Shown one piece after another: positions 4,372 through 41,600 of a stretch of 64,000 bases of DNA (positions are counted from its first letter, which is position 1; each line of letters starts with the position of its first letter). The DNA comes from Clostridia bacterium (GTDB taxonomy: Bacteria; Bacillota; Clostridia; TANB77; CAG-465): the NCBI GenBank assembly GCA_028692955.1, contig JAQUWH010000007.1, forward strand, positions 1 through 64,000, in the 5' to 3' direction. Made by a program: the position numbers and the translations under genes. Below the pieces are notes generated by a model. The model had not been told where the DNA came from. It ran no database searches and saw nothing but the letters and a program-made list of their open reading frames with translations.

Positions 4372-4854
4372 ATGTTTGTTGTAAACTTTAAATTAGATTT
4401 CAAGAAGATTTTTCTAGTATGTATATTAGTAGCAGCAATTGTTGCTACCATCATTGAATTTGGAAACAACGGTTCTAAAGTAGTAAATTCAAATGTAGAT
4501 CATAATTATGATTTTGTTTTAACTGAAGATAATTATACCTCCGTATTAAAACAAATTCATGAGAATATAGATGTCAATATTGGTAAAACCATTAAAATGA
4601 CTGGATTTGTATTTAGAATGCCAGACTTTAAAGAAAATTATTTTGTGTGCGGAAGAAATACAATTGTTAATAATGAGGATACTGTAGCTGGTTTCTTATG
4701 CGAATATGCAGATGCAAAAAAGTTGATTGATAATGAATGGACTGAAATTACTGGAGTCATTATAAAAGGTGAATACAATGGTGCTATGCCAATTATTAAA
4801 ATTGGTAATATGACAAAGGTAACAGCACCAGCCAATACCTTTGTGAATAATTAA
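4372..4854 (+). CDS. Membrane-anchored DUF1980-like protein (YcgQ C-terminal domain)
   Basis: About 160 residues: an N-terminal membrane helix (roughly 12-30) then an extracytoplasmic domain. The pattern GFVFRMPDF ... FLCEYADA ... W-EITG ... GEYNGAMPIIKIG matches the C-terminal domain of the DUF1980/YcgQ family. In that family the domain normally follows a longer membrane region, and ycgQ is normally paired with the permease gene ycgR. Neither partner is here. I chose ATG at 4372 because AGGTGA lies 6 bases before it; an upstream in-frame GTG overlaps that site. Function is unknown. Proximity to the ABC operon (90 bp) allows co-transcription but proves no link. Confidence 0.65.
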   Translation: MFVVNFKLDFKKIFLVCILVAAIVATIIEFGNNGSKVVNSNVDHNYDFVLTEDNYTSVLKQIHENIDVNIGKTIKMTGFVFRMPDFKENYFVCGRNTIVNNEDTVAGFLCEYADAKKLIDNEWTEITGVIIKGEYNGAMPIIKIGNMTKVTAPANTFVNN

Positions 4855-4856
4855 AA

Positions 4857-4895
4857 AATATGCTATGGGGTTAACTTCATAGCATATTGTTTTAT
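4857..4895. terminator. Bidirectional terminator between convergent genes
   Basis: Arms AATATGCTATG (4857-4867) and CATAGCATATT (4878-4888) pair perfectly, with T-rich sequence on the right and A-rich sequence on the left. It can therefore serve both the plus-strand DUF1980 gene and the minus-strand acyl-CoA synthetase gene. Confidence 0.85.
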
Positions 4896-11207: not shown

Positions 11208-12629
11208 TTAACTATTTTCTTTTTGGATAATGGCCCTTGCTGCAATAATTCCACTTGCACCTGCTTGCGCAAGCCCTCTTGTAATACCCGCGCCATCTCC
11301 TATAGCATAGAAGTTGTCGTATCCCTTTACTTGAAGGTTTTTGTCCAGGTCAGGTTTATCGCTATAGAACTTTACTTCAAGTCCATATAACAGGGTATCG
11401 ACATTAGCTATTCCGGGTACGATATTATTTAACACTTCTATTGTTTCAATAATATCTTGCAATGGATCATGTGGAATAGCAAGGCCAAGATTACCAGGTG
11501 TTGCTGTTAACGTTGGCTTTACAGTAGAGCGATTGATTTTTTCTACAGTAGAACGTCTACCCTCTTTTAAATCACCAAAACGTTGAACGATGATATCATC
11601 TCCACCAATCATATTGACAAGAGAGGCTATTTGCCTTGCATACTTATTTGGCTCTTTAAAGGGTTCAGTGAATGTTAGACTTACCAAAAGTGCAAAGTTC
11701 GTATTTTTGCTTCGCATATTAACATCTGCATAGCTATGCCCATTCACTGTAATAATGCCATCCACATTTTCATTGACAACATAACCATATGGATTCATGC
11801 AAAACGTTCTAACTCTATGTTTATGGCATTTAGTAAGGTAGGTAAGTTTTGCCTCGTACAACTCGTCCGTTACTTCTTCCATAATCTCTGCTGGAAGTTC
11901 AACTCTAACACCAATGTCAACTTGGTTATTGGATAATTTAATTCCAAGCTTTTGACATTGTTCAGAAAACCAAACAGAGCCAGATCTTCCGGGAGCGGCA
12001 ATTAAGTATTGGCAATGAATATATCCCTTTCCCTCTTCAAGAGATAATTGATATGGGTACTTCACTTCTTTTGTTAACTTTTCTATACTGCTAATTTTTG
12101 TATTGCACATTATTTTAATTCTTTTTTGAGATTTCAAAAAATCATACATTTTAGCAAGTATTTCAAAGTTATTTTCTGTACCAATATGCTTTACTTTTGC
12201 TTTTTGTAGATGCAAGTCATATTCCAGCGCCTTTTTGCTAAATTTTTTAACAAATTCACTATCATCATCGGTAATAGTGTTTATAGCGCCAAATTCCATA
12301 TTAATATCATCTACATAGTATATCATTTCCATTACTTCTTCATCAGAAATATAATCGGAAAGCCAACCACCAAACTCTGTCGTGATATTATACTTGCCAT
12401 CTGAAAAACTTCCTGCGCCACCAAACCCCTTCATGATACTGCAATTCCTACATTTCAAGCATTTCGTAATACTTTTGTCTTTTAGTTTAGGGCAACTTCG
12501 TTTTAAAATTTCATCCCCTTGTTCCACAACAAGAATAGATAGATTTGTTCTCTTGTTTAACTCATATGCCGCACAAACTCCAGAAATACCGGCTCCTATG
12601 ATACAAACATCATAGCGTTCATTTAACAT
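11208..12629 (-). CDS. FAD-dependent dehydrogenase, COG2509 type
   Basis: A 473-residue flavoprotein. The N-terminal dinucleotide-binding motif GAGISGVCAAYELNK (residues 12-26) is followed by E35 for ribose binding. The motif CPKLKDKSITKCLKCRNC followed by GFGGAGSFSDGKYN is characteristic of the uncharacterised FAD-dependent dehydrogenases of COG2509. A second FAD contact, GDGAGITRGLAQAGASG, lies near the C terminus. The reaction is not established for the family. The four-Cys region could be structural or metal-binding. AGGGAGG precedes the ATG. Single-gene unit with its own terminator. Confidence 0.85.
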   Translation of the reverse strand: MLNERYDVCIIGAGISGVCAAYELNKRTNLSILVVEQGDEILKRSCPKLKDKSITKCLKCRNCSIMKGFGGAGSFSDGKYNITTEFGGWLSDYISDEEVMEMIYYVDDINMEFGAINTITDDDSEFVKKFSKKALEYDLHLQKAKVKHIGTENNFEILAKMYDFLKSQKRIKIMCNTKISSIEKLTKEVKYPYQLSLEEGKGYIHCQYLIAAPGRSGSVWFSEQCQKLGIKLSNNQVDIGVRVELPAEIMEEVTDELYEAKLTYLTKCHKHRVRTFCMNPYGYVVNENVDGIITVNGHSYADVNMRSKNTNFALLVSLTFTEPFKEPNKYARQIASLVNMIGGDDIIVQRFGDLKEGRRSTVEKINRSTVKPTLTATPGNLGLAIPHDPLQDIIETIEVLNNIVPGIANVDTLLYGLEVKFYSDKPDLDKNLQVKGYDNFYAIGDGAGITRGLAQAGASGIIAARAIIQKENS

Positions 12630-20869: not shown

Positions 20870-21124
20870 TTCATCCTAATAATTAGGACGAAATGACCAT
20901 GATTCCGCGTTACCACCTAAATTTCATTTAGATTACTCTAAATGCTCTTCATTACAGCTATTACGGGCCTACCCGCTCTTTCCTACTCATTATCTGTTCA
21001 AAAAGAGACCTCCAAGGTGAAATTTCAGTTAAGATGTATGAATAGGTTTCCAGCCGATGACCCATATTCTCTTGCATACATATTCTTTTCCTACTTTGCC
21101 TTTTCATAGGTTTTTATTTAATAT
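20870..21124 (-). promoter_or_regulatory. T-box riboswitch leader of pheST
   Basis: On the minus strand the leader contains the T-box antiterminator sequence AGGTGGTAACGCGG (about 20902-20916). It is followed by a strong terminator in which GTCATTTCGTCCTAA pairs with TTAGGATGAAGTGAC before a U6 tract. Upstream there is a long Stem I region with AG-rich bulges. Uncharged tRNA-Phe would stabilise the antiterminator and allow pheST transcription. I could not place the Phe specifier codon with certainty. Confidence 0.92.
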
Positions 21125-30793: not shown

Positions 30794-31081
30794 TTAAAAT
30801 AATTCTTCATATCTACTACTTGCTATTTTTTGAGTAATTGACTTCCATGTATTGCAACCTACAATTCCATCTTGTGCTAATCTGTTATCTCGTTGATAAC
30901 GAACCACAGCATTTTTTGTATTTGCTCCAAACACTCCATCAATAGCACCAGCATTGTATCCTAATGTATTTAATGCATCTTGTAAAACAGCAACATAGAC
31001 ACCTTTTCTTCCCTGTTTGACAAGCGGATATCCACCTGTGGGGCAAGCCGGTTTCACATCACGTTTATCGACGTGAACCCA
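30794..31081 (-). pseudogene. 3' part of an M15-type peptidase gene, cut by the mobile element
   Basis: The frame from the element boundary reads WVHVDKRDVKPACPTGGYPL, then a peptidoglycan-binding domain (VKQGRKGVYVAVLQDALNTLGYNAGAIDGVFG, ending SSRYEELF). It has no start codon with a ribosome site; the GTG at 31057 is an internal Val codon of the original gene. The matching 5' part lies at 41211-41600, 10.1 kb away, and the two join in frame into a protein of about 223 residues. The His in WVHVD is probably the third zinc ligand of the peptidase. Confidence 0.88.
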
Positions 31082-31101
31082 GGTAGTCGCTAATTTGGAA
31101 A
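31077..31101. other. Left attachment site (attL) of the element
   Basis: Core ACCCA (31077-31081), then ATTTGGAAA at 31093-31101. The host half to the left is gene sequence; the element half starts GGTAGTCGCTA. Joined to attR it gives an attP with inverted ends. Confidence 0.75.
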
Positions 31102-31102
31102 T

Positions 31103-32708
31103 TTATTTTGGACTTTGAAATTTGCAATAAATATTTATATTTTTTTCGCCATTGGCGTTTTTATAAACTGTAATTTTATCTATTAACACGCTTAATATAT
31201 TTCTGTCTAATTTTTTGAATTTTAAAAACTCGTTTATTGCTCTATCAATCATGTCATCATTTTTCACATTAGAAATACGGTCTATTTCATTATCGATTAC
31301 AATTAAACGTTGCTCCAACTTTTCTCTTTCCCCTGCTGACTGAATTTGTAACGAAAGAAAACAATCTTGCGTTATATTACCCACTACTTTGTCTTTGTAT
31401 AATTCGTACTGCAAGTTTGAATTCTCTTCTATTTTTGACATAATAATTTTCTTTTCATGTTGCTTATCTATTAATATCTTTTTTGTTTGCTCTTGGTATG
31501 TTTTTTCAATGGCATTTCCACGATTAAGATAAGTCAATCCCATTTCACTTAAAAATGTTTTTATTTGCTTTTCAATTTCTTCTTCATGAATAAAACCCAT
31601 ATCACATTTACCGATTTTTCTAAAATTTTTTGCAACATTGCAGATACAATAATATTTTCCTTTTTCATGTCTAGGTAAAAAAGTAACCCTAGAACCACAG
31701 TTTGAACAAAACAAAAAACCGGTTAGCGTATGACCGATACCCTTTTTAGGTATATAAGACCTTTTCATGAGTATTTGTTTAACTGTATTAAAATCATTAA
31801 GGTTAATAATTGGTTCGTGTCTATTCTCCACGCGTACCCATTTCTCTTTTGGGTTGGCTCGTTGCTTTCTGATTTTATAGTTAATACTCTGTTTTTTGTT
31901 TTGTATCACGTGTCCTATATACACTTCATTTACTAGAATTCTTCTTATTGTCGTATCACTCCAAGCACCCGCTACAATTCTTTGCGTATTCTTTACTTTG
32001 CTATATTCGGACGGTGTCGGTATACTATCTCTGATTAAGTCTAGTGCTATGCTATGTATAGGCTTACCATCTAAAAATTCCGCAAATATTCTTTTTACAT
32101 ATAGGGACGAATAAGGGTCAATTAATAATTTTCCTTTTGCTTTTTCATCTTTCATATAGCCAAAGGGTGCTGACGTCCCTAAATAGTCCCCCCTTTGTTG
32201 CTTTATCTTAAAAGCTGTTCTCACTTTTTTTGATATGTCTTTAGCGTAAAGGTCATTTACCACCCCCATAAATGCGCTTGTACTGTTATCTTCATTTTCA
32301 TAAGTATCAACACTGTCGTTAACCGCTACATACCTTATCTGGTGCTCTGGGAAGTATTCGTCAATATAATAACCAGTTTTAGCATAATTTCTTCCCAGTC
32401 TTGACAAGTCTTTTGTAATAACTGTATTGATAACTTTGCCCTCAATGTCCATTAACATCTTCTTAAAACTTGGTCTTTCAAAATTCGTACCAGTATAGCC
32501 GGTCATCAGAATAAATTTTAACTATATGCCAATGATGTTCTAAAGCGTAGTTAATGAGATAATCAATCTGATTCCTAATGCTTTCCGAAATTTTTAAGTT
32601 TCCATCATCTTTGGACAATCGAACATATATACCAACACTTACTGAAGAATTGGCAAATAGAAGTGAATATTTTTTTATTATAGATTTTATGTAGTCATAA
32701 TTTTGCAT
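31103..32708 (-). pseudogene. Large serine recombinase 1 (element integrase), frameshifted
   Basis: ATG 32708 has AGGGGGAA upstream. The first frame carries GIYVRLSKDDG with catalytic Ser32 and runs to SDD. The second frame continues GYTGTNFERPSFKKML, the normal resolvase continuation, into a recombinase domain and a zinc ribbon (CSNCGSRVTF ... YYCIC) with a coiled-coil tail. The frames join if one of the two G's at 32501-32502 (plus strand) is removed. The restored length is about 540 residues, normal for TnpX/Tn4451-like integrases. It sits directly inside attL, so this is presumably the integrase that placed the element. It is inactive unless the frameshift is an error or is bypassed. Confidence 0.85.
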
Positions 32709-32965
32709 TGTTCCCCCTAACCGCAAATTAGTCAGAACAATATATTGTGCAAATACATTATATAACATTTACATTATTTTTTAAAGTATTTACTATATTT
32801 TTTATAATAAATTTGTCTATAACACCGCACATTATATCATCAAACGTTTGCCCCTTCTCATCAAATATCACTTTAACATTAAGTTCATTCAATTTTATTG
32901 CACCACCTTATTACATGTATATGTGTTTTATCGACATAAAATAACAAGTATTTTTTACGCAATAA

Positions 32966-33010
32966 AAAACAGAGTGTTACAAGCTATAAGCTATTGTAAC
33001 ACTCTGTTTT
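32966..33010. terminator. Strong bidirectional terminator-like hairpin
   Basis: AAAACAGAGTGTTACA (32966-32981) and TGTAACACTCTGTTTT (32995-33010), a 16-bp perfect inverted repeat with a 13-base loop. The stretch 32769-32965 before it holds no supported gene. Confidence 0.8.
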
Positions 33011-33045
33011 TCTTTGCGCTTGATGTCTGTAAGGTAACAATGAGA

Positions 33046-33072
33046 AAAAGGGCTTGCATACAAGCCTTTTTT
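33046..33072. terminator. Second hairpin terminator
   Basis: GGGCTTG-CATA-CAAGCC followed by TTTTTT on the plus strand and preceded by AAAAA for the other direction. Tandem terminators insulate the 33126 gene. Confidence 0.7.
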
Positions 33073-33125
33073 CATGTTACGAATAATGGACAACCATATA
33101 ATAGTATAATTACATGGTGATTGTT

Positions 33126-33290
33126 ATGATAATTCAGAGCTATCAATTAGATGAAACGACCATTGAAATCCATGATGATTTTATTCCCGATGAAAAGGAA
33201 AAGGAAAAGCAAAAACAAAAAATATATGAAATGAAATCTATAGCAAAAGCTATTATTAAAAATTCTGAAAGCAAGAAAGCGGGACTATAA
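33126..33290 (+). CDS. Small charged protein of the element (54 residues)
   Basis: ATG 33126 follows a GGTGA site and opens 54 codons beginning MIIQSYQLDETTIEIHDDF, with a Lys/Glu-rich middle (EKEKEKQKQK) and basic C terminus (KNSESKKAGL). A hairpin overlaps its stop. Similar small acidic/basic proteins occur between recombinase genes of clostridial elements and may act as directionality factors, but that is a guess from position. Family not recognised. Confidence 0.55.
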   Translation: MIIQSYQLDETTIEIHDDFIPDEKEKEKQKQKIYEMKSIAKAIIKNSESKKAGL

Positions 33291-33305
33291 TTATAGTTCC
33301 GTTTT
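33279..33305 (+). terminator. Terminator at the end of the 54-residue gene
   Basis: CGGGACTATAA pairs with TTATAGTTCCG over 11 bp including one G-U pair, followed by TTTTCT. The stop codon is in the stem. Confidence 0.75.
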
Positions 33306-33317
33306 CTAATTTTTTCC

Positions 33318-33365
33318 ACTTGCAACTGCAATGTTCCGATTCGTTGGTGCAATGCAGTTGCAAGT
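33318..33365. repeat. 48-bp imperfect palindrome beside serine recombinase 2
   Basis: Outer arms ACTTGCAACTGCA (33318-33330) and TGCAGTTGCAAGT (33353-33365) are perfect inverted repeats; the inner 22 bases are partly symmetrical. Size and symmetry fit an attachment site of a large serine recombinase. It lies 40 bp from the end of recombinase 2. A replication or transfer dyad is also possible. Confidence 0.6.
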
Positions 33366-33404
33366 AAACTTGTAAAAAAAATAAGATATGTTGCAACAAT
33401 AAAT

Positions 33405-34955
33405 TTAAGACGGTACTTTGGGGTAGATTTTTAGCTCAAAGTTTGCAGTAACTGAATCCGAAGCTTTTTCGTATTTATTGTAGACTACCTTTTCAAGCAC
33501 TGATTTAAGTAGCATGTTTTTTTCTTCTATGTCCTCCGTCATATAATATACATCAATTACATTAGAAATCAACGGCATAAGGCTTTCAGCATTTTCTTTC
33601 AGTAGCTGGCTTTTCTTTAATGTGCTTTGCTGGCTTTCTAGTACCCCCTCAAGCGTTTTTATTTTACTTATGATACTTGTAGAACGCTCTTTATAAATTT
33701 CTCTAGTGTAAGAACCATCCTCATATAAATCACAAATAGCGTCTAATTTCTTCCTAAAGGTCTGTAGTTCTTTTTCTGAGGATGAAATGGATGATTGCAT
33801 TAATTTAATTTCATTATTGTCTTTTTTCTCACGTGATGAAAGGTCTATTTGATAGTTTTTTAAATAAAGTCTTAAGCTTTCTATAAGTTTACTTTCCACT
33901 AATGCTAAACTAGCTCCAATATTTTGACATTCGGTATTAACACAAATAAGAATTTCACTTGGTGTTTTATTTGACTTGCATAATTTTCTTTGTAGCTTTT
34001 GGCCACACATCCCACATATGAGTAATCCAGCCATTGGATTTTTAGGAGCGGTTTGCGGTATTCTTTTTATCTGCTTCATGCTCTGTACTTGATTCCATGT
34101 TTCTATGTCTATAATTGGTTCGTGTAAGCCATTTGCCACTACGACATCATTGCTTTTATTGCGTGGGCGGGTAATTACTATTTTACCCTTTTTCATTGCT
34201 TTAACCGTTTTCCTGCGATTCCAATGCACCTTGCCAATATAGAGGTCATCATACAGAATTTGTCGCACCATGGGTTGACTCCATTTTTCAGCAATTAGTG
34301 GTTGCACATTTAATTCATTCAACTTTTTAGCAATTGCAATATATGAGCTGTGTTCCTTTGCCCGCCACTTGAAAATTTGGCGAATGACTGTTGCATGCTC
34401 TTCGTTGATAACTAATTTGTAGCCTTTTCCTTTCAATTTTTCTTTTGTATATCCATATGGGAGTTTGCTCCCAACGTATTTACCCTCTCTCACAGAAGCT
34501 AACCGTCCAGCATTCATACGCTGATTGATTTTTTTGTATTCTCTGCGTGACATAAACAAACTGAATTCAAAATATTCTTCATCTTCATCTCGCCACGGTC
34601 TATATGTTTTCAGCGGGGTTATTATTTCTGTATTACTGTACTTAAATACTTGTGCTACTAACCCCTGGTCTAATGTGTCACCACGTGCCAATCTTTCAAT
34701 CTCAACAACGAATACACCCGCCCACATATCATTTTCAACGTCTGTTAGCAACTCTTGCATAACTGGGCGTGCTGCTATTGTTTCACCCGATACGATTTCT
34801 TTATAAATTCTCTTGGGGACAATTTTCATTCGCCTTGCCAGTAAATCTAATATTTCTTCGTGTCTTTTAAGTGTATCAAATTCTCCGCCTATTTCAGCCT
34901 CTATATCGACTCTCGATTTTCTTAAATAGAAACAATAATCTTCATCAATTTGCAT
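33405..34955 (-). CDS. Large serine recombinase 2
   Basis: A 516-residue recombinase starting at ATG 34955 with GGAGGG upstream. The resolvase domain begins DYCFYLRKSRVDIEAE with catalytic Ser14. Further motifs are IERLARGDTLDQGLVAQVFK, a recombinase domain with LPYGYTKEKLKG, and a zinc ribbon (CGMCGQKLQRKLC ... CVNTEC), then a Glu/Lys-rich coiled coil. It belongs to a different branch from recombinase 1 (sequences differ throughout). Its own att site may be the palindrome at 33318-33365. No frameshift is seen, so it could be the active enzyme, either excising the element or acting on a nested one. Confidence 0.9.
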   Translation of the reverse strand: MQIDEDYCFYLRKSRVDIEAEIGGEFDTLKRHEEILDLLARRMKIVPKRIYKEIVSGETIAARPVMQELLTDVENDMWAGVFVVEIERLARGDTLDQGLVAQVFKYSNTEIITPLKTYRPWRDEDEEYFEFSLFMSRREYKKINQRMNAGRLASVREGKYVGSKLPYGYTKEKLKGKGYKLVINEEHATVIRQIFKWRAKEHSSYIAIAKKLNELNVQPLIAEKWSQPMVRQILYDDLYIGKVHWNRRKTVKAMKKGKIVITRPRNKSNDVVVANGLHEPIIDIETWNQVQSMKQIKRIPQTAPKNPMAGLLICGMCGQKLQRKLCKSNKTPSEILICVNTECQNIGASLALVESKLIESLRLYLKNYQIDLSSREKKDNNEIKLMQSSISSSEKELQTFRKKLDAICDLYEDGSYTREIYKERSTSIISKIKTLEGVLESQQSTLKKSQLLKENAESLMPLISNVIDVYYMTEDIEEKNMLLKSVLEKVVYNKYEKASDSVTANFELKIYPKVPS

Positions 34956-35114
34956 AACATACCCTCCAAACATACAGTAATACATATGAATTAACTGCGT
35001 GTCCATATTCTGAACACACATTCCTTTGCCCATAATCGGGGCAAAATATAGTTCGACTACATATATACTATATTCAGTTATATAAAAGTATGTTACATAT
35101 ACTTACAATAAAAA

Positions 35115-35140
35115 AGAACAACCCATAAAAAGTTGTTCTA
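35115..35140 (-). terminator. Terminator of the AbrB-like gene pair
   Basis: AGAACAAC (35115-35122) pairs with GTTGTTCT (35132-35139); U6 follows on the minus strand. The stop codon overlaps the stem. Confidence 0.8.
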
Positions 35141-35404
35141 TTCCGTATTAATAAACTCAAGGTAATCAGCATGTTTACTGGCGATTATCTTTCGTCTGCA
35201 TATTTCGCATATATATTTTTTACCAAAGCGCAATAGCATAGCCTTACACCCACAAAGCGCGCAACAATCGACTGAATTTGAAAGCCGTATATTTTTCCCT
35301 TTAAATTCTACTTTAAGCCTATCACCATAGCGAATGTCGTACGATTTACGAATTTCTACTGGTATTGTTATTTTGCCTTTTTTATCTACTTTTCTATATG
35401 CCAT
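35138..35404 (-). CDS. AbrB-type DNA-binding protein with C-terminal zinc ribbon (copy 1)
   Basis: 88 residues from ATG 35404. The N-terminal swapped-hairpin domain is AYRKVDKKGKITIPVEIRKSYDIRYGDRLKVEF (the AbrB/MazE/SpoVT pattern). The C-terminal part has CALCGCKAMLLRFGKKYICEICRRK, two CxxC pairs that would hold zinc. It is the second gene of a tandem pair with similar architecture, 26 bases after copy 2. It probably regulates element genes; the target is not known. The ribosome site is weak, so coupling to the upstream gene is likely. Confidence 0.82.
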   Translation of the reverse strand: MAYRKVDKKGKITIPVEIRKSYDIRYGDRLKVEFKGKNIRLSNSVDCCALCGCKAMLLRFGKKYICEICRRKIIASKHADYLEFINTE

Positions 35405-35430
35405 ATTATTATTTCTCGCCCACAATTATT

Positions 35431-35697
35431 TTACTTATTCCCTTGAATTATGATATTCCTTTTTTTCTCTTCATCAATTAATTTGCACTTGCAATATTCA
35501 CAAATTTGTTTATTTTCAAATTGTGTTAAAAGCCTTGTATTTCCACAGAAAACGCAACCGTCCATATACTTTTGTATTAATATAGACTGTTCAGTGCAAT
35601 TTATTATTATTTTATCCCCAATAGAAATTTTTAAAGCTTTGCGAAAGTTTATCGGAATGCGTATTCTGCCCTCGGTATCAATTTTTCGTATTTCCAA
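35431..35697 (-). CDS. AbrB-type DNA-binding protein with C-terminal zinc ribbon (copy 2)
   Basis: 88 residues from a TTG start at 35697, chosen because GGGGG lies 8 bases upstream and the AbrB fold begins there (EIRKIDTEGRIRIPINFRKALKISIGDKI). The C-terminal ribbon is CVFCGNTRLLTQFENKQICEYCKCK. A longer frame to 35808 has no ribosome site and would include dyad sequence. The upstream promoter lies between the inverted dyads that flank the tyrosine recombinase gene, so expression may depend on DNA inversion. Confidence 0.8.
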   Translation of the reverse strand: MEIRKIDTEGRIRIPINFRKALKISIGDKIIINCTEQSILIQKYMDGCVFCGNTRLLTQFENKQICEYCKCKLIDEEKKRNIIIQGNK

Positions 35698-35736
35698 AAT
35701 ATTTTCCCCCAAAGCGTGAATACTAAAATCATAAAA

Positions 35737-35759
35737 CCGCAAAGTGTATAACTTTACGG
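35737..35759. repeat. Left inverted dyad (candidate recombination site)
   Basis: Arms CGCAAAGT (35738-35745) and ACTTTACG (35751-35758) flank GTATA. Read on the minus strand it matches the right dyad (36753-36773) at 20 of 21 positions, so the two are inverted copies with the asymmetric spacer in opposite orientation. It lies between the AbrB promoter and the AbrB genes. Confidence 0.75.
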
Positions 35760-35779
35760 TCAATATATACAATAAAGAT

Positions 35780-35808
35780 AGTATATAATATGTACTTAAA
35801 TTTGTCAA
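35780..35808 (-). promoter_or_regulatory. Promoter of the AbrB gene pair, inside the dyads
   Basis: On the minus strand TTGACA (35808-35803), 17 bases, TATACT (35785-35780). A plus-strand TATAAT (35784-35789) overlaps it and may serve the tyrosine recombinase; its -35 is weak. Confidence 0.7.
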
Positions 35809-35826
35809 CTTTTTGGGAGTGAAAAA

Positions 35827-36741
35827 ATGAAAATTTGTTATGTTTTTGATGAATTTATAGAAAATAAAAGATTAATTGCAAAAGAATCCACGATTGCGAA
35901 TTATCATACTATGTTTATAAACCATTTTCCATTTTGGAATGAAGATATTACCGAAGCAACAGAGGAAGAAGTAAGGAAACATCTATTGTCTTTAAAAGAT
36001 AGGCTTGCAGACAAAACAAGATACGATATAATAACGCTTATTAATGGCTTTTTTGCTTTTGCGTTTAGTAAAGGCTATATAAATCAAAAAGTTAATTTCC
36101 CTACACCAAAGCTTTGTAAAAAGAAAGTTATAATCTTCAACGAGTCAGAAGCAAAAAGAGTAGCGCATTATATACTTGATAATTTTTCATGCATTAATTT
36201 GTCTGCAATTTTAGCTCTGTTTTTAGGTGTTAGAATTGGAGAAATATGCGCCTTGCAGTGGCGAGATTTCAATTTCAAGAATGGGACTATTAATATTGAA
36301 AACACTTTGCAACGCATAAAAGATTTAGATAATTCGAATAGTAAAACAAAAAAGACTAAAATAGTTATAACCTCACCCAAAACGCCTAGCTCATTGCGTG
36401 AAATACCCTTGCCAGATTTTTTACTAGCATATTTTAAAAAATACGCAGGAAAGCCGGAATGGTATATCTTAACCGCCAATACGAAATACATGGAGCCACG
36501 CACCTTGCAAAAGCACTATAGGGACTTGTTAAACATTGTTGACGTTGACTATAGAAAATTCCACGCACTTCGCCACACTTTTGCAACACAATCTAATCAC
36601 AAAGGAATGGATGTCAAGACTTTACAAGAAATACTAGGCCATGAAAATATATCATTCACATTGGCGCAATATGTACACCCGGATTTAACCTTGAAACGTG
36701 AACAAATAAACAATATATATACTGATATTAAAGCCGTTTAA
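35827..36741 (+). CDS. Tyrosine site-specific recombinase
   Basis: 304 residues with an N-terminal SAM-like core-binding domain (about 1-95) and a catalytic domain. Catalytic residues visible: Arg136 (GVRIGEICALQW), His247-x-x-Arg250 (HALRHTFA), His272 (LGHENIS) and Tyr282 (QYVHPDL). It is bracketed by two inverted copies of a 21-bp dyad, the arrangement of a self-inverting cassette. Tyrosine recombinases can act as integrases, resolvases or promoter invertases; the flanking sites favour inversion. The ribosome site is GGGAG. Confidence 0.9.
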   Translation: MKICYVFDEFIENKRLIAKESTIANYHTMFINHFPFWNEDITEATEEEVRKHLLSLKDRLADKTRYDIITLINGFFAFAFSKGYINQKVNFPTPKLCKKKVIIFNESEAKRVAHYILDNFSCINLSAILALFLGVRIGEICALQWRDFNFKNGTINIENTLQRIKDLDNSNSKTKKTKIVITSPKTPSSLREIPLPDFLLAYFKKYAGKPEWYILTANTKYMEPRTLQKHYRDLLNIVDVDYRKFHALRHTFATQSNHKGMDVKTLQEILGHENISFTLAQYVHPDLTLKREQINNIYTDIKAV

Positions 36742-36748
36742 TGTAGAA

Positions 36749-36777
36749 AAATCGCAAAGTTATACACTTTGCGATTT
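36749..36777. repeat. Right inverted dyad (candidate recombination site)
   Basis: Arms AAATCGCAAAGT (36749-36760) and ACTTTGCGATTT (36766-36777), perfect, around TATAC. It starts 8 bases after the recombinase stop, so it could also act as a terminator, but its core is a near-copy of the left dyad in opposite orientation. Confidence 0.75.
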
Positions 36778-36843
36778 CTATTTGTCACATATCACAATAA
36801 TAACATGTGCAATTCTCGAAGAGAATATACGAAAAGGAGCAAA

Positions 36844-37309
36844 ATGAATTTAAAAGGTATAAATAATTATTTAAAACGGTTTATATAGTTGTGGTTTTAC
36901 CGTTGCGATAATTAATATTGAGAAGCAAAAAGTCATAGCAAGCAATATTGATGTGGGAAATGTAAAGCTGGATGAAAAATATTGTTTTTTAACAAATAAT
37001 CTTCCTAAAACAATATATAACCGTACTGTTTTTAACAAGTGCTTTAGAGAGAATTTAGCCATACAAGATAACGGCAACTACCAATCAATAGTGGGAAATA
37101 ATATGTATTGCCTTGAAAAAGCCATTGCGCCAAATGTATTTAGTAATGTAGCTATCCCTTTTGAAACTATCGTTTTCATAAATATGGAACATTGCAATAT
37201 AGTGCTATGGTCACGTGGTAAAAAAACACCAGCAACTACACAGTCTTTAAAGCGTGTCATGGCGAACATCATTTTTATGTTGGATGATTGTTACGGTTTT
37301 GAGGTATAA
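36844..37309 (+). pseudogene. Unknown element gene, frameshifted near its start
   Basis: ATG 36844 has AGGAG upstream and opens MNLKGINNYLK, but this frame stops 14 codons later. A second frame, open from 36875, continues GLYSCGFTVAIINIEKQKVI and runs 118 further residues from GTG 36953, ending DDCYGFEV. Dropping one A of the run at 36873-36876 joins them into about 155 residues. Either the gene is frameshifted, or the run is an error, or the 118-residue form is made from GTG. The protein is soluble and mixed; family not recognised. It is the first gene to the right of the recombinase cassette. Confidence 0.55.
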
Positions 37310-37313
37310 AGAT

Positions 37314-37368
37314 ATAAGGCAAGCGCTGGGGACACAATAGCGTAAAACCTCGCCAGCGCTTACCTTAT
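37314..37368. terminator. Long hairpin between convergent element genes
   Basis: ATAAGGCAAGCGCTGG (37314-37329) pairs with CCAGCGCTTACCTTAT (37353-37368) with one mismatch. Confidence 0.8.
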
Positions 37369-37371
37369 ATT

Positions 37372-38238
37372 TTATTGTCTAGTTAATTGTTCTATTTTTT
37401 CTATTCGGTAGGCAACTTTGGGGTGGCTTGCTTGCATTTGCTCGATAAGGCCTTTTTTATCGCTTATTTCCATGTCATATATGGCATATAGCGTGCTTGT
37501 TAATTCTGCTCCATAACCGATATTGTAGGCGTATTTATCGGCTTTGTATTCTCTCGTGCGTGAGCCACCGCAAATGATTACATTGCATACAAAACTTACA
37601 ATCCTAAAGAATAAATCTAACAAGGTTATAAGGAATTTAAAAATATCTCCTATGAAATTTGTTGCAAATAGGCTTTGTATAAACATAAGGATAAACCTTG
37701 CAATGTAAACCAAAAAGAAATACACAAAGGTATAGACAGTAATTATATTGCTTATTACAGTATCGCCATTTTCAATATGCCCTAGCTCATGCGCTATTGT
37801 GCCTTTTAACTGTTTATCCGAAAAGTGTTCTAATGCCCCTCTGCTTAATATTACGCTCGTTCGTCCTATCGCCTGGGCGTTAATGCTTGCACTATCTATT
37901 ATATAGGGGGCAACATCTTGTTTTATACTTGTATCTGATAATACACCGTCAAATAGGTCGTTTAACCTTTCTTTTTCCGTATTGGTTGCGACATGGCGTA
38001 CGTCCCCTAACCGCCGTAATAGCCATTCTAACCAGTCAGAAAGAGCTATAAGGAAAAATACAGACGTATATATTAATGCCGGTATAACCATGAAAGGGTG
38101 AAACCAATAAAAGCCCCAAATAATCAAAAAATTTATGGCAAGGAATAATATTAATCTAGGCTTTTGAATTAAGACTTTAAAGCGTGTAAAATACTTCAGC
38201 GAGAACGTCCTTAATAGGTCTAGCATAAAATCTTTCAT
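37372..38238 (-). CDS. M48-family zinc metalloprotease (HtpX-like)
   Basis: 288 residues: two N-terminal membrane helices (about 28-50 and 52-72), a protease domain with HELGH at 150-154 and a downstream EYKADKYAYNIGYG that supplies the third zinc ligand (Glu), with two more helices between. HtpX-like proteases degrade damaged membrane proteins. As the gene lies among element transfer genes, it may process element or host envelope proteins. GGGGGACA precedes the ATG. Low similarity to housekeeping HtpX is likely. Confidence 0.85.
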   Translation of the reverse strand: MKDFMLDLLRTFSLKYFTRFKVLIQKPRLILFLAINFLIIWGFYWFHPFMVIPALIYTSVFFLIALSDWLEWLLRRLGDVRHVATNTEKERLNDLFDGVLSDTSIKQDVAPYIIDSASINAQAIGRTSVILSRGALEHFSDKQLKGTIAHELGHIENGDTVISNIITVYTFVYFFLVYIARFILMFIQSLFATNFIGDIFKFLITLLDLFFRIVSFVCNVIICGGSRTREYKADKYAYNIGYGAELTSTLYAIYDMEISDKKGLIEQMQASHPKVAYRIEKIEQLTRQ

Positions 38239-38326
38239 GTTGTCCCCCTCATAAATTAGTTTTTTATGGCGGTTAAGGCATAAAAAGCCTTAACTGCCTT
38301 AATTGCATACCAGAAGAAAAAAGTTT

Positions 38327-38370
38327 ATGTGTCAAGGGCGGCGTTAGCCGTATATTTACCCTTGATACAT
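38327..38370 (-). terminator. Hairpin after the coupling-protein gene
   Basis: ATGTGTCAAGGG (38327-38338) pairs with CCCTTGATACAT (38359-38370), one mismatch, with an inner CGGC-GCCG stem. Confidence 0.6.
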
Positions 38371-38386
38371 GGGCTTTTTTCTGCTA

Positions 38387-40078
38387 TTAGAACGGTTTGT
38401 TGACCTTTATTTTTTCTACTGCTCCGCTATCTTTACTTACAAAATAGGCGTACCAGCTCGGCAAGCTTTTGATTTCGTCTGGATGTATCACAAACTCCCT
38501 AACTTTTCGTGCAGAGCCTTTGCCGACGGCCTCGGTTTCCTCAATTTGAAAGGTCATTTTCATGCGTTCAACCGTACCAAAATTTTTTGCCCATTCTTCT
38601 GCGCTCTTAAAGGTATTTTGACGTAACACAAGATAATTGTTGCAGTTCTCAATTATTTGGTTTTTTAAGTTTCCTATATCGTCCACACTGTCTAAATCGC
38701 TTAACGATTGCGCTGCCAGTATACATGTAACATTTGCGCTGCGGCTCTTATTTATAAGATTTAACAAAGCAGTTGAAGCGTATGTATTTATCTCGTCAAA
38801 GACAAAAAACTTTCTATCTTGGTTATCAAACATTTTGCTTACGGCGGTTTTGCTCTCAATCAATGCTAATTTTCCTAGTGCCGTTGATGTCTCGGGGTAT
38901 ATGAGAGGGTTCAACACAAATAATATGACCGCCTTTTCATTTAGTGCTTGGTAAATGTTTATACCCTCACCATTTCCGAATATCTCTCCTACGGAGCTTT
39001 CTAACAAGGTTGCAAAACGTGCGCTTGCTTCTTCCGCAATCTTACCGGACTTTTCGGCTAAAGCAATATTTTTTATGTGTTCGTCTTTGGTGATTTTTTC
39101 CTCGGTGCATAAACTTAATGATAAGGCGGTAAACTGCTTTTCGGGTAGAAACTCGACTATTTTATAAAAATCAAGGCAATCAAATTTAAGGTTAAGGAGC
39201 TTGATTAATCTCTGTAGATAACGTTCTGTATTTAGCTTATAGTGTTCTTCGCTCCACATGCTCAAATTGATTAGCATGTCTTTAATAACTGTATCGTTCA
39301 CATCTTGAAAAGGGTTGTACTTTGCGCTTGAGTGTGGGTTATTCATGTCTATTATATAAAGTCGTTTATTATGTTCTTTACACAAGTTTTGCGTTATTTC
39401 CAAAATAGAATCATCTGTAATGTCTCCCTTACCGTCCACAATCAGACAACCGTAATCTTTTTTCACCGCAGTATATATAAAGTTGCTGATTGCTACCGTT
39501 TTACCACTCCCAGTTGTGCCAGCTATGAAAACGTGTTTGCAATCGTCCTTGCAGTAAATTCTTTTTCGTGCATTGTTTAGCCCTAAAAATGTACTGTCTA
39601 AAGGTGAATATTTCTCACTCGTTGGTGCTGGCAATTCCAGTTTGTCTATCTCACGTTCAAGACCGTGTATATTGGCTTGCTCATATTTTCTATTTTTTTG
39701 CATTACATAGTTAAAATAAATTGCTATTGAAAAGCCTATAAGGAGCATTACAAGCCAGCTATAGGGCGTATAGTTCCTATATTCCAATAAAGCCGAAAAC
39801 GGCATTGCAATAAAAATTTTTTCAAACACAATTTTGGTTGTATAAAGAAATTCTACAAAAAATACGTGTAATATACTTTGTTGTATCAGCAATGCGCCCC
39901 ACCCGAAACCGCTCAACAACAGGGCGTATTTCGTTTTTATCTTACCAAAATAAAGGAGTAAGAGAAATACAAAGGCAATTGGCAAAACTGGCGTGAGTGT
40001 GAAAAACAACACAAGGAACAGAAGAACGTTAAAAAAGTAGCCTTCTTGTTTTTTTATTCTGTTATAATTCTTTGACAT
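38387..40078 (-). CDS. VirD4/TraG-type conjugal coupling ATPase
   Basis: 563 residues. Four hydrophobic segments in the first 130 residues anchor it in the membrane. Walker A is GTTGSGKT (187-194). Walker B-like FFVFDEINTY is followed by the TraD/TraG recognition stretch CILAAQSLSDLD. Coupling proteins bring DNA to a secretion channel. In this element no channel genes are visible, so it may use a co-resident system or transfer dsDNA in FtsK fashion. It overlaps the next gene by 17 bases. The C terminus ends EKIKVNKPF. Confidence 0.82.
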   Translation of the reverse strand: MSKNYNRIKKQEGYFFNVLLFLVLFFTLTPVLPIAFVFLLLLYFGKIKTKYALLLSGFGWGALLIQQSILHVFFVEFLYTTKIVFEKIFIAMPFSALLEYRNYTPYSWLVMLLIGFSIAIYFNYVMQKNRKYEQANIHGLEREIDKLELPAPTSEKYSPLDSTFLGLNNARKRIYCKDDCKHVFIAGTTGSGKTVAISNFIYTAVKKDYGCLIVDGKGDITDDSILEITQNLCKEHNKRLYIIDMNNPHSSAKYNPFQDVNDTVIKDMLINLSMWSEEHYKLNTERYLQRLIKLLNLKFDCLDFYKIVEFLPEKQFTALSLSLCTEEKITKDEHIKNIALAEKSGKIAEEASARFATLLESSVGEIFGNGEGINIYQALNEKAVILFVLNPLIYPETSTALGKLALIESKTAVSKMFDNQDRKFFVFDEINTYASTALLNLINKSRSANVTCILAAQSLSDLDSVDDIGNLKNQIIENCNNYLVLRQNTFKSAEEWAKNFGTVERMKMTFQIEETEAVGKGSARKVREFVIHPDEIKSLPSWYAYFVSKDSGAVEKIKVNKPF

Positions 40079-40697
40079 AGTTTTCGACCTCTTCCAACCT
40101 TATGACCTCTATAGGGTAACTTTGCTTTAGTTTTTCAAGGTTTACTAATATTCGTGCCTTGTCGCTTGGTACTACAAATTTTTGTATGTCGCAAAGCAAA
40201 AAATTATTCTGAATGTTGGTCTGTAGCCTATTTATAGACTTTTCCGTTAATTCAATTTCGACAAAATATTTTTTGTTGTTTTCCATGTAAATAAAATCCG
40301 GGTCGTGTTTGCTATTTCCAAAGCCGTTTGAGTGTTTGATTTCTCTTTCTGTTGTTATATCATCCATATCAACACCATGTTGATTGATAATATATATGGC
40401 GGTGTCAACCATTGCTATATCGTGCGTTATTTGCTCTATTCTAATTTCTTTCGTATGATAATCCAGCTTGAACGCCTTTACTGCTTTTCTCGTTACGAAA
40501 AGCAATCCTGGAACGCCGTATATGATGTATCGGCGTTCCAAATAGCCTACGTCAATCAGTCTTTTTATTCTTCTGTCTGTTGCTCTTTGTCCGCTAAAAT
40601 TGCACAAGAGCCTAACTTGTCGGCTTAACAAGAATCGCCATTTGCTTATCGTTTTTATTATATTTATGTCTCTGTCTGTTACTTGGATTTTGTCCAT
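40062..40697 (-). CDS. Replication-relaxation family protein
   Basis: 211 residues starting MDKIQVTDRDINIIKTISKW with a winged-helix-like region (LLSRQVRLLCNFSGQRATDRRIKRLIDVGYLERR) and a nuclease-like stretch (HDPDFIYMENNKKYFVEIELTEKS). This matches the plasmid 'replication-relaxation' family, often found next to coupling ATPases of Gram-positive elements. Role in replication or mobilisation is proposed but not proven for the family. GAGGAGGTGA precedes the ATG. It overlaps the coupling-protein gene, so both come from one transcript. Confidence 0.75.
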   Translation of the reverse strand: MDKIQVTDRDINIIKTISKWRFLLSRQVRLLCNFSGQRATDRRIKRLIDVGYLERRYIIYGVPGLLFVTRKAVKAFKLDYHTKEIRIEQITHDIAMVDTAIYIINQHGVDMDDITTEREIKHSNGFGNSKHDPDFIYMENNKKYFVEIELTEKSINRLQTNIQNNFLLCDIQKFVVPSDKARILVNLEKLKQSYPIEVIRLEEVENYVKEL

Positions 40698-40940
40698 GCT
40701 CTAATTTGTCACCTCCTCGGGTGGGGTAAGGGTTCTAAAGGGAGAAGCGCGGACGCGTCAAGAATTCAATGTAGCGTGGGATTTTCCCTTTAACTCACCA
40801 TGGGGTCGGGAAAGAGGATTTTAAAAGGGGGGAAAAGGTTGAGCGTCCTTATTGTATTGTAGCGGGGCTTCCCCCCTTTTTATTTATTATTATTTATTCT
40901 AACTACTGCACACAACTATCTATATGTATATGTATGTGTT
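40698..40940. other. GC-rich non-coding region with an inverted repeat
   Basis: No gene seen. AAAAGGGGGGAA (40823-40834) and TTCCCCCCTTTT (40869-40880) are perfect inverted repeats. The whole region is far richer in G+C than the neighbours, as expected for a cis-acting origin region. Confidence 0.6.
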
Positions 40941-41073
40941 TTATTTATATGTGTGTAATTTATTACACGTTGAAAGGGCGGGGTCACGGATATTTAGCCG
41001 TGACCCCGCCCTTTCATCAATATGAAGAAAACGCATATATATAGCCATTTTTAGGGTGTTGTGTGCAGTAGTT
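40901..41073. repeat. Nested inverted repeats: possible origin of transfer or replication
   Basis: Outer arms AACTACTGCACACAAC (40901-40916) and GTTGTGTGCAGTAGTT (41058-41073) are perfect. Inside lies an 18-bp perfect hairpin at 40972-40989 and 40998-41015 (GAAAGGGCGGGG ... CCCCGCCCTTTC) with an 8-base loop. The structure is about 170 bases long and lies between attR and the replication-relaxation gene. It may be oriT, an origin, or a very strong terminator. Confidence 0.65.
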
Positions 41074-41193
41074 GGCGTTCTTTTAGGTGTTCTAATCAGG
41101 TGAGACATTTTTTGTACAGATGAAAGAATGCCTTTCTCCTTGTCCCATTTGTTTATGTAATCGTATGTTAATAGAATGCACAATATACTGTTG

Positions 41194-41216
41194 TTTCCAA
41201 ATTCATGCCTTACCCA
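41194..41216. other. Right attachment site (attR) of the element
   Basis: TTTCCAAAT (41194-41202), TCATGCCTT, then core ACCCA (41212-41216). The flank to the right is host gene sequence (AGTGGGCGTTAAATAC). With attL it defines the element. Confidence 0.75.
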
Positions 41217-41600
41217 AGTGGGCGTTAAATACGCTGGTTCTACATAATTAAACATCTTATACTTAATAGCCAAATTTCTTATTTTGTCTCTTTCTGCAGC
41301 CGGCATTCCTTGTGCTATATCAAAAGCAACTCCAGCATAGTGTTGTGACATTCCTGAATGTCCCCCTTCACCAATCCTCTTAAAAGCATAACCAACTTTA
41401 ATTGGTTTGCCATATAAACTTCTTAACTTATTAAAAGCTTCTATGGCGCGTCTATCAGTCCAAAGAGTATCAGACTTTGATGATCCTCTAAATTCTCTTA
41501 CGGATAAATACTTATCTTGTGAAAAAGGCATTGGATCACTTAATTCTCTATAATATGTTTCCATTCTATTGTTACTAGGATTATATACTAATATTTTCAT
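41211..41600 (-). pseudogene. 5' part of the split M15-type peptidase gene
   Basis: 130 native codons from ATG 41600 (MKILVYNPSNNRMETYYREL) to YLTPTWV. Zinc-site motifs are SQHYAGVAFDIAQ, with His87 and Asp94; the third ligand (His131) lies in the other half. Beyond the att core the frame continues 89 codons into element DNA (to 40941) with an unrelated tail, so a chimera without a PG-binding domain would be made. It was probably a D-Ala-D-Ala carboxypeptidase or cell-wall amidase; with its partner it makes a 223-residue enzyme. AGAGAGGTGG precedes the ATG. Confidence 0.85.

Follow-up and report, generated by a model that had tools for sequence, protein, structure and literature searches.

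What is the function of two inverted repeats, one nested inside the other, that lie next to the gene for a replication-relaxation protein in the genome of a Clostridia bacterium? The structure occurs in a stretch of 64,000 nucleotides (contig JAQUWH010000007.1, positions 1 to 64,000 of the forward strand), the whole of which we refer to as 'the window'. An earlier note, made from the letters of this DNA alone, had suggested an origin of transfer (oriT) or of replication. Judged by comparison with related loci and by predicted protein structures, the nested repeats are very probably the oriT of an integrative mobilizable element of ~10.1 kb. What sustains this suggestion is the likeness of the neighboring gene to one on the plasmid pAM373, the E-x-E-x3-K-x3-R motif of its product, and a nested layout and core sequence that recur beside such genes.

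The features of the locus are collected in the table. The outer repeat, described in the note as perfect, is 100% complementary, with arms 141 nt apart, and the perfect 18-bp GC-rich hairpin said to lie within it is also there, perfect in fact over 19 bp; an inverted-repeat scan extends this inner pair to 22 nt (40971-40992/40995-41016) at 95%. Other parts of the description hold in part. 'GC-rich' applies to the inner hairpin (its arm is 68% GC), but the remaining sequence within the outer repeat is AT-rich. The further 12-bp repeat exists, but it adjoins the nested pair and does not surround it. And of the two neighbors named, the relaxase gene does adjoin the site, whereas the right junction of the element lies ~140 bp past the outer arm. 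Folded as single-stranded DNA, positions 40895-41080 form one long imperfect hairpin of -48.8 kcal/mol, versus -14.9 +/- 2.7 kcal/mol for 200 shuffles, none of which folded as well (z -12.6). Two similar inverted-repeat units of ~57 bp occupy the relaxase leader, and no relatives of these units were found among the collected loci. A likeness of the leader repeats (40736-40880) to the oriT of ICEBs1 was considered and dropped for that reason.

Table. Features of the nested-repeat locus, of the element that carries it, and of the comparable site in pAM373. Positions are those of the window except in the last line.
Feature	Position	Strand	Remarks
Left junction core ACCCA	31077-31081	.	Shared with right junction
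Second serine recombinase, split in two frames	31103-32768	-	Parts 32478-32768 and 31103-32506; only the latter scanned
Large serine recombinase	33405-35033	-	ORF and Pfam scan
Tyrosine recombinase	35827-36741	+	ORF and domain scan
VirD4/TraG-type coupling protein gene	38387-40078	-	TrwB_AAD_bind E 1.6e-17
MOBC-type relaxase gene	40062-40697	-	Predicted winged helix and nuclease-like domain; 211 residues
Inverted-repeat unit in relaxase leader	40736-40792	.	Resembles the 40823-40880 unit
12-bp inverted-repeat unit in relaxase leader	40823-40880	.	Arms 40823-40834/40869-40880, 100%
Outer inverted repeat, 16 bp	40901-40916/41058-41073	.	Perfect complement, 100%
Core motif GACC-N9-CAACGTG	40966-40985	- (relaxase-sense)	Proposed relaxase recognition/nick region
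Inner GC-rich hairpin	40971-41016	.	19-bp perfect stem 40971-40989/40998-41016; 8-nt loop 40990-40997
Two short direct repeats (~12 bp)	41074-41100	-	Just beyond outer arm; by eye; proposed relaxase binding repeats
Right junction core ACCCA	41212-41216	.	Shared with left junction
pAM373 nested repeats	L054 9193-9210/9317-9334 (outer), 9223-9247/9275-9299 (inner)		Beside row of direct repeats

The element lies within 31078-41212, with the nested site near its right end, upstream of the relaxase and VirD4-type genes. It interrupts a host peptidase gene (window 30794-31081 / 41212-41600) at TWV codons; the peptidase has an M15-like domain (a weak Pfam match) and a peptidoglycan-binding domain. 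Where this gene is uninterrupted, in loci L010 and L013, the protein reads ...LTPTWVHVDKR..., and in the window ...LTPTWV closes the right part, whereas ...TTWVHVDKR... opens the left. Some relatives also have this gene split, but at a different point (about residue 86), and in two genomes (G050 and G080) its pieces lie 4-6 kb apart with an apparent large serine recombinase between them (by eye). The peptidase gene may be a recurrent insertion target, possibly with programmed excision.

Besides its recombinases, one of which may be inactive since its gene is split over two frames, the element encodes an M48-type peptidase. No gene for a secretion channel was found among its scanned ORFs (the small ORFs were outside the scan). 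With recombinases, a relaxase and a VirD4-type gene but no channel gene, it thus reads as an integrative mobilizable element, that is, one with its own recombinase, oriT and relaxase and no secretion channel. Two VirB4-like pieces elsewhere in the same genome, near the start of contig C15 and on contig C6, score far below the family cut-off and cover different parts of the family; since the same search also matches 8 of 14 control genomes, they say little about a helper. A similar set of genes, comprising a serine recombinase or integrase, a relaxase called Rel_PF13814/MobC, and VirD4, defines class 8 of the streptococcal integrative mobilizable elements in a survey (PMC5357655), where it accounts for 2 of 144 elements; the element in the window differs in belonging to a Clostridia-related genome and in carrying a tyrosine recombinase as well.

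In Pfam, the product of the relaxase gene matches Replic_Relax at 17.2 bits, below the cut-off of 25.3, and in PHROGs a replication initiation protein (E 5.7e-5). No NCBIfam model matches it; MobC_subf matches two relatives, L040 and L031, below its cut-off. The protein aligns with the replication-relaxation protein of pAM373, a plasmid typed MOBC, and the E-x-E-x3-K-x3-R spacing is common to both. The streptococcal survey equates PF13814 with MobC and reports it alongside VirD4 and serine integrases (PMC5357655). Both Pfam and PHROGs name the family after replication, and the site could, instead or in addition, be where this protein nicks the excised circle to start vegetative rolling-circle replication, which is compatible with its being an oriT. 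Relaxases can indeed drive replication of excised elements. We consider such an origin unlikely, if not far-fetched: the relaxase gene has a VirD4-type partner in the window, in pUA140, in pCCELLA01 and, by eye, in L007, and this pairing points to transfer.

An AlphaFold model of the relaxase, made from 11 window and locus proteins, has a mean pLDDT of 91. By structure match, residues 1-80 resemble MarR-type winged helices (Z 12.2-10.5, rmsd 1.3-3.5 and 66-80 residues aligned among the best 50 matches). The C-terminal domain, modeled alone (pLDDT 91), most resembles AF1548 (Z 9.4, rmsd 3.0, 108 residues aligned), Can2 (8.1, 3.7, 121) and the nickase N.BspD6I (8.0, 3.5, 116), with FokI lower down (Z 7.3). 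AF1548, Can2 and N.BspD6I are PD-(D/E)XK nucleases, and with several of the top matches being enzymes of this kind, the predicted fold leans towards PD-(D/E)XK. An RNA polymerase subunit makes up 18 of the best 50 matches, the Foldseek E-values are 0.018 or worse, and a profile of these relaxases gave no match by sequence among solved structures. As described in a review, MOBC relaxases are related to PD-(D/E)XK enzymes, and TraX of pAD1 has a winged helix (PMC12857230).

Conserved residues cluster in a motif. Across an alignment of 11 proteins, D134, E147, E149 and K153 never vary and R157 hardly does; D134 and E147 sit on core strands of the model, and E-x-E-x3-K is present in all 23 of the relaxases compared. 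These residues fit D...E-x-E-x3-K-x3-R, the active-site pattern of MOBC relaxases such as TraX. In TraX, the residue that follows the conserved arginine, Y181, has reportedly been proposed as catalytic (a candidate nucleophile). The corresponding residue is leucine in the window protein, unlike in pAM373, and is tyrosine in 4 of the 23 proteins (those of pAM373, pLIS52, pEFM9-3 and pAT09-a). The other 19 have a different residue where TraX has the suspected tyrosine, and this bears on the mechanism. Because Y181 is proposed, not proven, as a defining residue, we keep the window protein as a MOBC-type relaxase despite the missing tyrosine.

Searches for such relaxases gave matches in 4 genomes of 143 relatives, 5 of 385 from the same order and 10 of 391 from the same class, the genome of the window being counted each time. 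Searching the genome_contigs collection gave 10 loci, three of which are apparently the places of L006, L007 and L029 again; a search of that collection with a single protein found nothing, nor did a three-protein alignment run against viral_contigs. In the close group, the inner-stem consensus lies inside an outer repeat in 12 of 15 loci (the window, L037, L038, L040, L041, L043, L044, L045, L046, L030, L031 and L032). The site is absent from the DNA examined of L028 and L039, and L042 has 125 nt upstream only. The outer repeat spans at least 10 bp in all 12. Its arms are mostly unrelated in sequence from one locus to another (e.g. AACTACTGCACACAAC, AAAAACACACGCT, ACAAGACACCAA and CTCCCACATTTATTTATA), yet perfectly complementary; in L041, L043 and L044 they are AT-rich and carry little weight by themselves. 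In the inner stem, pairing is kept throughout positions 1-18, with 4 unpaired cells and one G-T among 216 (12 loci, some of them close kin), and at positions 4, 9, 11, 13, 14 and 17 two to four types of pair occur over the 12 loci and one cell is unpaired. As the arms change in sequence but stay complementary, both the inner hairpin and its outer repeat would serve as DNA structure.

We scored a nested pair where both arms were at least 10 bp, the inner loop no more than 70, and the centers within 45 nt. By this measure, 16 of 19 regions upstream of relaxases have one (the exceptions are L028, L037 and L039), compared with none of 1140 dinucleotide shuffles of the 19, the window's region included; the pAM373 region was picked with its site already known, and the pair scored in pSSP59 is not its main one. 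Among 168 ORF upstream regions, relaxases included, 10 have a nested pair, of which 8 cover the relaxase's own site and 2 do not. The nested site of L037 is at 12351-12511, 6.4 kb downstream of the relaxase. Of the weak homologues, L034 lacks any inverted repeat as long as 9 bp within 600 nt upstream, and L033 has one 12-bp hairpin. A locus with a broken relaxase gene in a genome of the same genus, L008, has no inner-hairpin match in 3.3 kb and was excluded from the counts.

The position of the site also bears on whether the repeats might act as RNA instead, as a structured leader that controls the relaxase operon. Positions 40698-41080 fold well as RNA (z -12.3), they lie 5' of the operon, and the leader contains the two additional inverted-repeat units. 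Against this, the start of the outer repeat varies between 154 and 630 nt ahead of the gene within the close group, in L037 the site lies on the gene's far side, and Rfam has no family that reaches threshold at the site; at a relaxed threshold, 40600-41300 yields 17 sub-threshold matches, mostly to hairpin-like families. An RNA leader is very unlikely. The only Rfam family found over the window is a T-box leader, outside the site at 20881-21116 (RF00230, 111 bits).

The nested repeats, which we regard as an oriT, also share a linear sequence. On the relaxase-sense strand, an inner arm holds GACC and, nine bases later, runs into CAACGTG or a close variant. A loose form of this motif, GACC-N9-C[ATC][ATC]C[GA]T[GAT], which was defined on part of the loci in which it was then counted, matches 16 times in 301 kb of locus DNA searched on both strands. 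Of these matches, 15 fall within the inner hairpins of 14 loci, L040 having one on each strand; 20 simulations gave a mean of 2.65 by chance and a maximum of 4. The clostridial loci and pAM373 were already known when the rule was drawn up. Among nine loci fetched afterwards, five (pLIS52, pEFM9-3, pAT09-a, L204 and L205) carry both nested repeats and motif, pEFM9-3 and pAT09-a being near copies of one another and kin to pAM373. The other four do not fit: L206 and L207 have neither feature, L208 has nested repeats only, and L069, in which the relaxase is truncated, has neither. Left uncounted were L203, apparently the pCCELLA01 place again, and L209-L212, which match over the first 50-70 residues only. 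The loose motif is absent from the weaker homologues L027 and L033-L036, and from pUA140, pDY31-optrA and CloDF13, where nested repeats are present.

The motif arm does not always pair with the same side. In a table of 20 loci, chosen for carrying the motif and read along the relaxase-sense strand with the end of the motif defined slightly more widely (19 match the loose form as well; pCCELLA01 does not), the paired arm that bears the motif is the right inner one in 12 (the window type) and the left one in 8 (the pAM373 type). The linear core is thus kept while its pairing partner switches side. The note had proposed alignment with related elements as a check, and what recurs beside relaxase genes is this core together with the nested layout.

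Two further explanations of the repeats can be weighed against the core. The GC-rich 19-bp hairpin sits between part of the host gene and the relaxase gene, where an intrinsic, bidirectional terminator might shield the element from that host gene; the note had named conservation of no more than a poly-U hairpin as the sign of a plain terminator. We find this extremely improbable, for no T-run follows the hairpin on either strand, the terminator scan lists none there, and a terminator leaves unexplained the outer repeat and the one-sided core motif, both of which are conserved too. Alternatively, inverted repeats 141 nt apart beside an operon, in an element with recombinase genes, might bound an invertible segment (a phase-variable promoter) flipped by a recombinase of the element. 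This is hardly conceivable: outer-arm sequences differ between elements, and each of the 19 motif loci for which both strands were searched has the loose motif on the relaxase-sense strand (L040 has it on the other strand too), so that one orientation is kept.

The oriT interpretation finds its closest parallel in pAM373, from Enterococcus faecalis. Like the window, this plasmid has nested repeats, with outer arms of 18 bp and inner arms of 25 bp, near a replication-relaxation gene, and GACC-N9-CAACGTG on the relaxase-sense strand. Unlike in the window, where the motif is the right arm and runs out of the hairpin, in pAM373 it is the left inner arm and runs into the loop. According to its title, the study of Francia and Clewell (2002) concerned the transfer origins of pAD1 and pAM373 and identified the nic site of pAD1; we infer that the nested site of pAM373 is its mapped oriT. 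As the review relates, the MOBC relaxase TraX of pAD1 binds to a set of five direct repeats lying 70-120 bp away from nic, with no covalent intermediate seen (PMC12857230). By eye, the short direct repeats of pAM373 and pLIS52 and those of the window occupy the same flank, which fits a relaxase binding site there.

Other plasmids are similar in part. In pCCELLA01 (typed MOBC), pUA140, pDY31-optrA and pSSP59, nested repeats precede the relaxase gene, which is followed by a gene of the VirD4 type; MOB-suite types pUA140, pDY31-optrA, pSSP59 and pLIS52 as non-mobilizable. In pUA140 and its relatives, 5.6-kb plasmids of Streptococcus mutans, the nested repeats are of 11/16 bp. These plasmids resemble the element in having the relaxase homologue and the VirD4-type gene, and pUA140 differs in that it is not integrated and its core motif has diverged. 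In pSSP59, a row of similar hairpins lies beside the nested site (L050 1964-2232); these may be relaxase binding repeats in hairpin form. The mobilization region of CloDF13, a Gammaproteobacterial plasmid, also has a 14-bp outer repeat (9650-9663/9770-9783), here around opposed copies of GGTGGTC, and the plasmid has a VirD4-like frame (by eye). Its nick sequence is GGGTG/GTCGGG.

The site in the window has what characterizes a MOBC oriT, namely a large inverted repeat beside direct repeats (by eye) near a relaxase gene. It fits this known class, and the shared signature suggests a recognition rule for such sites. In the mechanism we propose, the element would first excise, and the relaxase would then act at the site, binding beside it by means of the winged helix, probably at the direct repeats. 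The nuclease domain would nick one strand in or next to GACC-N9-CAACGTG, that is, in a region comprising a paired hairpin arm and then the short CAACGTG tract; we infer both the position of the nick and the strand. The VirD4-type protein would bring this strand to the secretion channel of a helper, transfer and the need for a helper being likewise presumed.

It is possible, though we would sooner bet against it, that a single code is common to the MOBC oriTs of Bacillota: the relaxase-sense strand would carry a GACC-N9-C(W/C)(W/C)C(R) core, set in a nested double hairpin, with its pairing partner on either side. The relaxase would read the junction of paired arm and short tract and nick there, using an active site of the restriction-enzyme type without the tyrosine suspected in TraX. 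At the level of titles and abstracts, we found no nested-repeat or GACC-N9 rule for MOBC oriTs in the literature. On MOBC chemistry, the review notes that no covalent DNA intermediate was observed and raises the question of how the strand is carried and later joined again (PMC12857230). If the signature holds, genomes could be searched by sequence for sites of this kind, and short, defined substrates would follow.

Searches with patterns reached beyond the relaxase loci. A composite pattern found 11 loci, with GC contents of 0.56-0.73, none of them nested and none with a relaxase. The hairpin pattern matched 7 of the 391 class genomes, namely 3 of the 10 with a relaxase match (the window's own included) versus 4 of the other 381 (Fisher p 4e-4); the reversed control pattern matched 3 genomes. 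No relaxase was found in five hairpin-pattern loci of 2.5-3 kb each (L055, L056, L058, L061 and L062). A loose hairpin pattern gave at least 120 stretches in viral_contigs; of 80 that were read, none has a relaxase and one, L123, has the motif too. Any outer repeat or relaxase would lie beyond the point where this contig of the viral collection stops, at an inner hairpin that carries the core motif (4817-4886).
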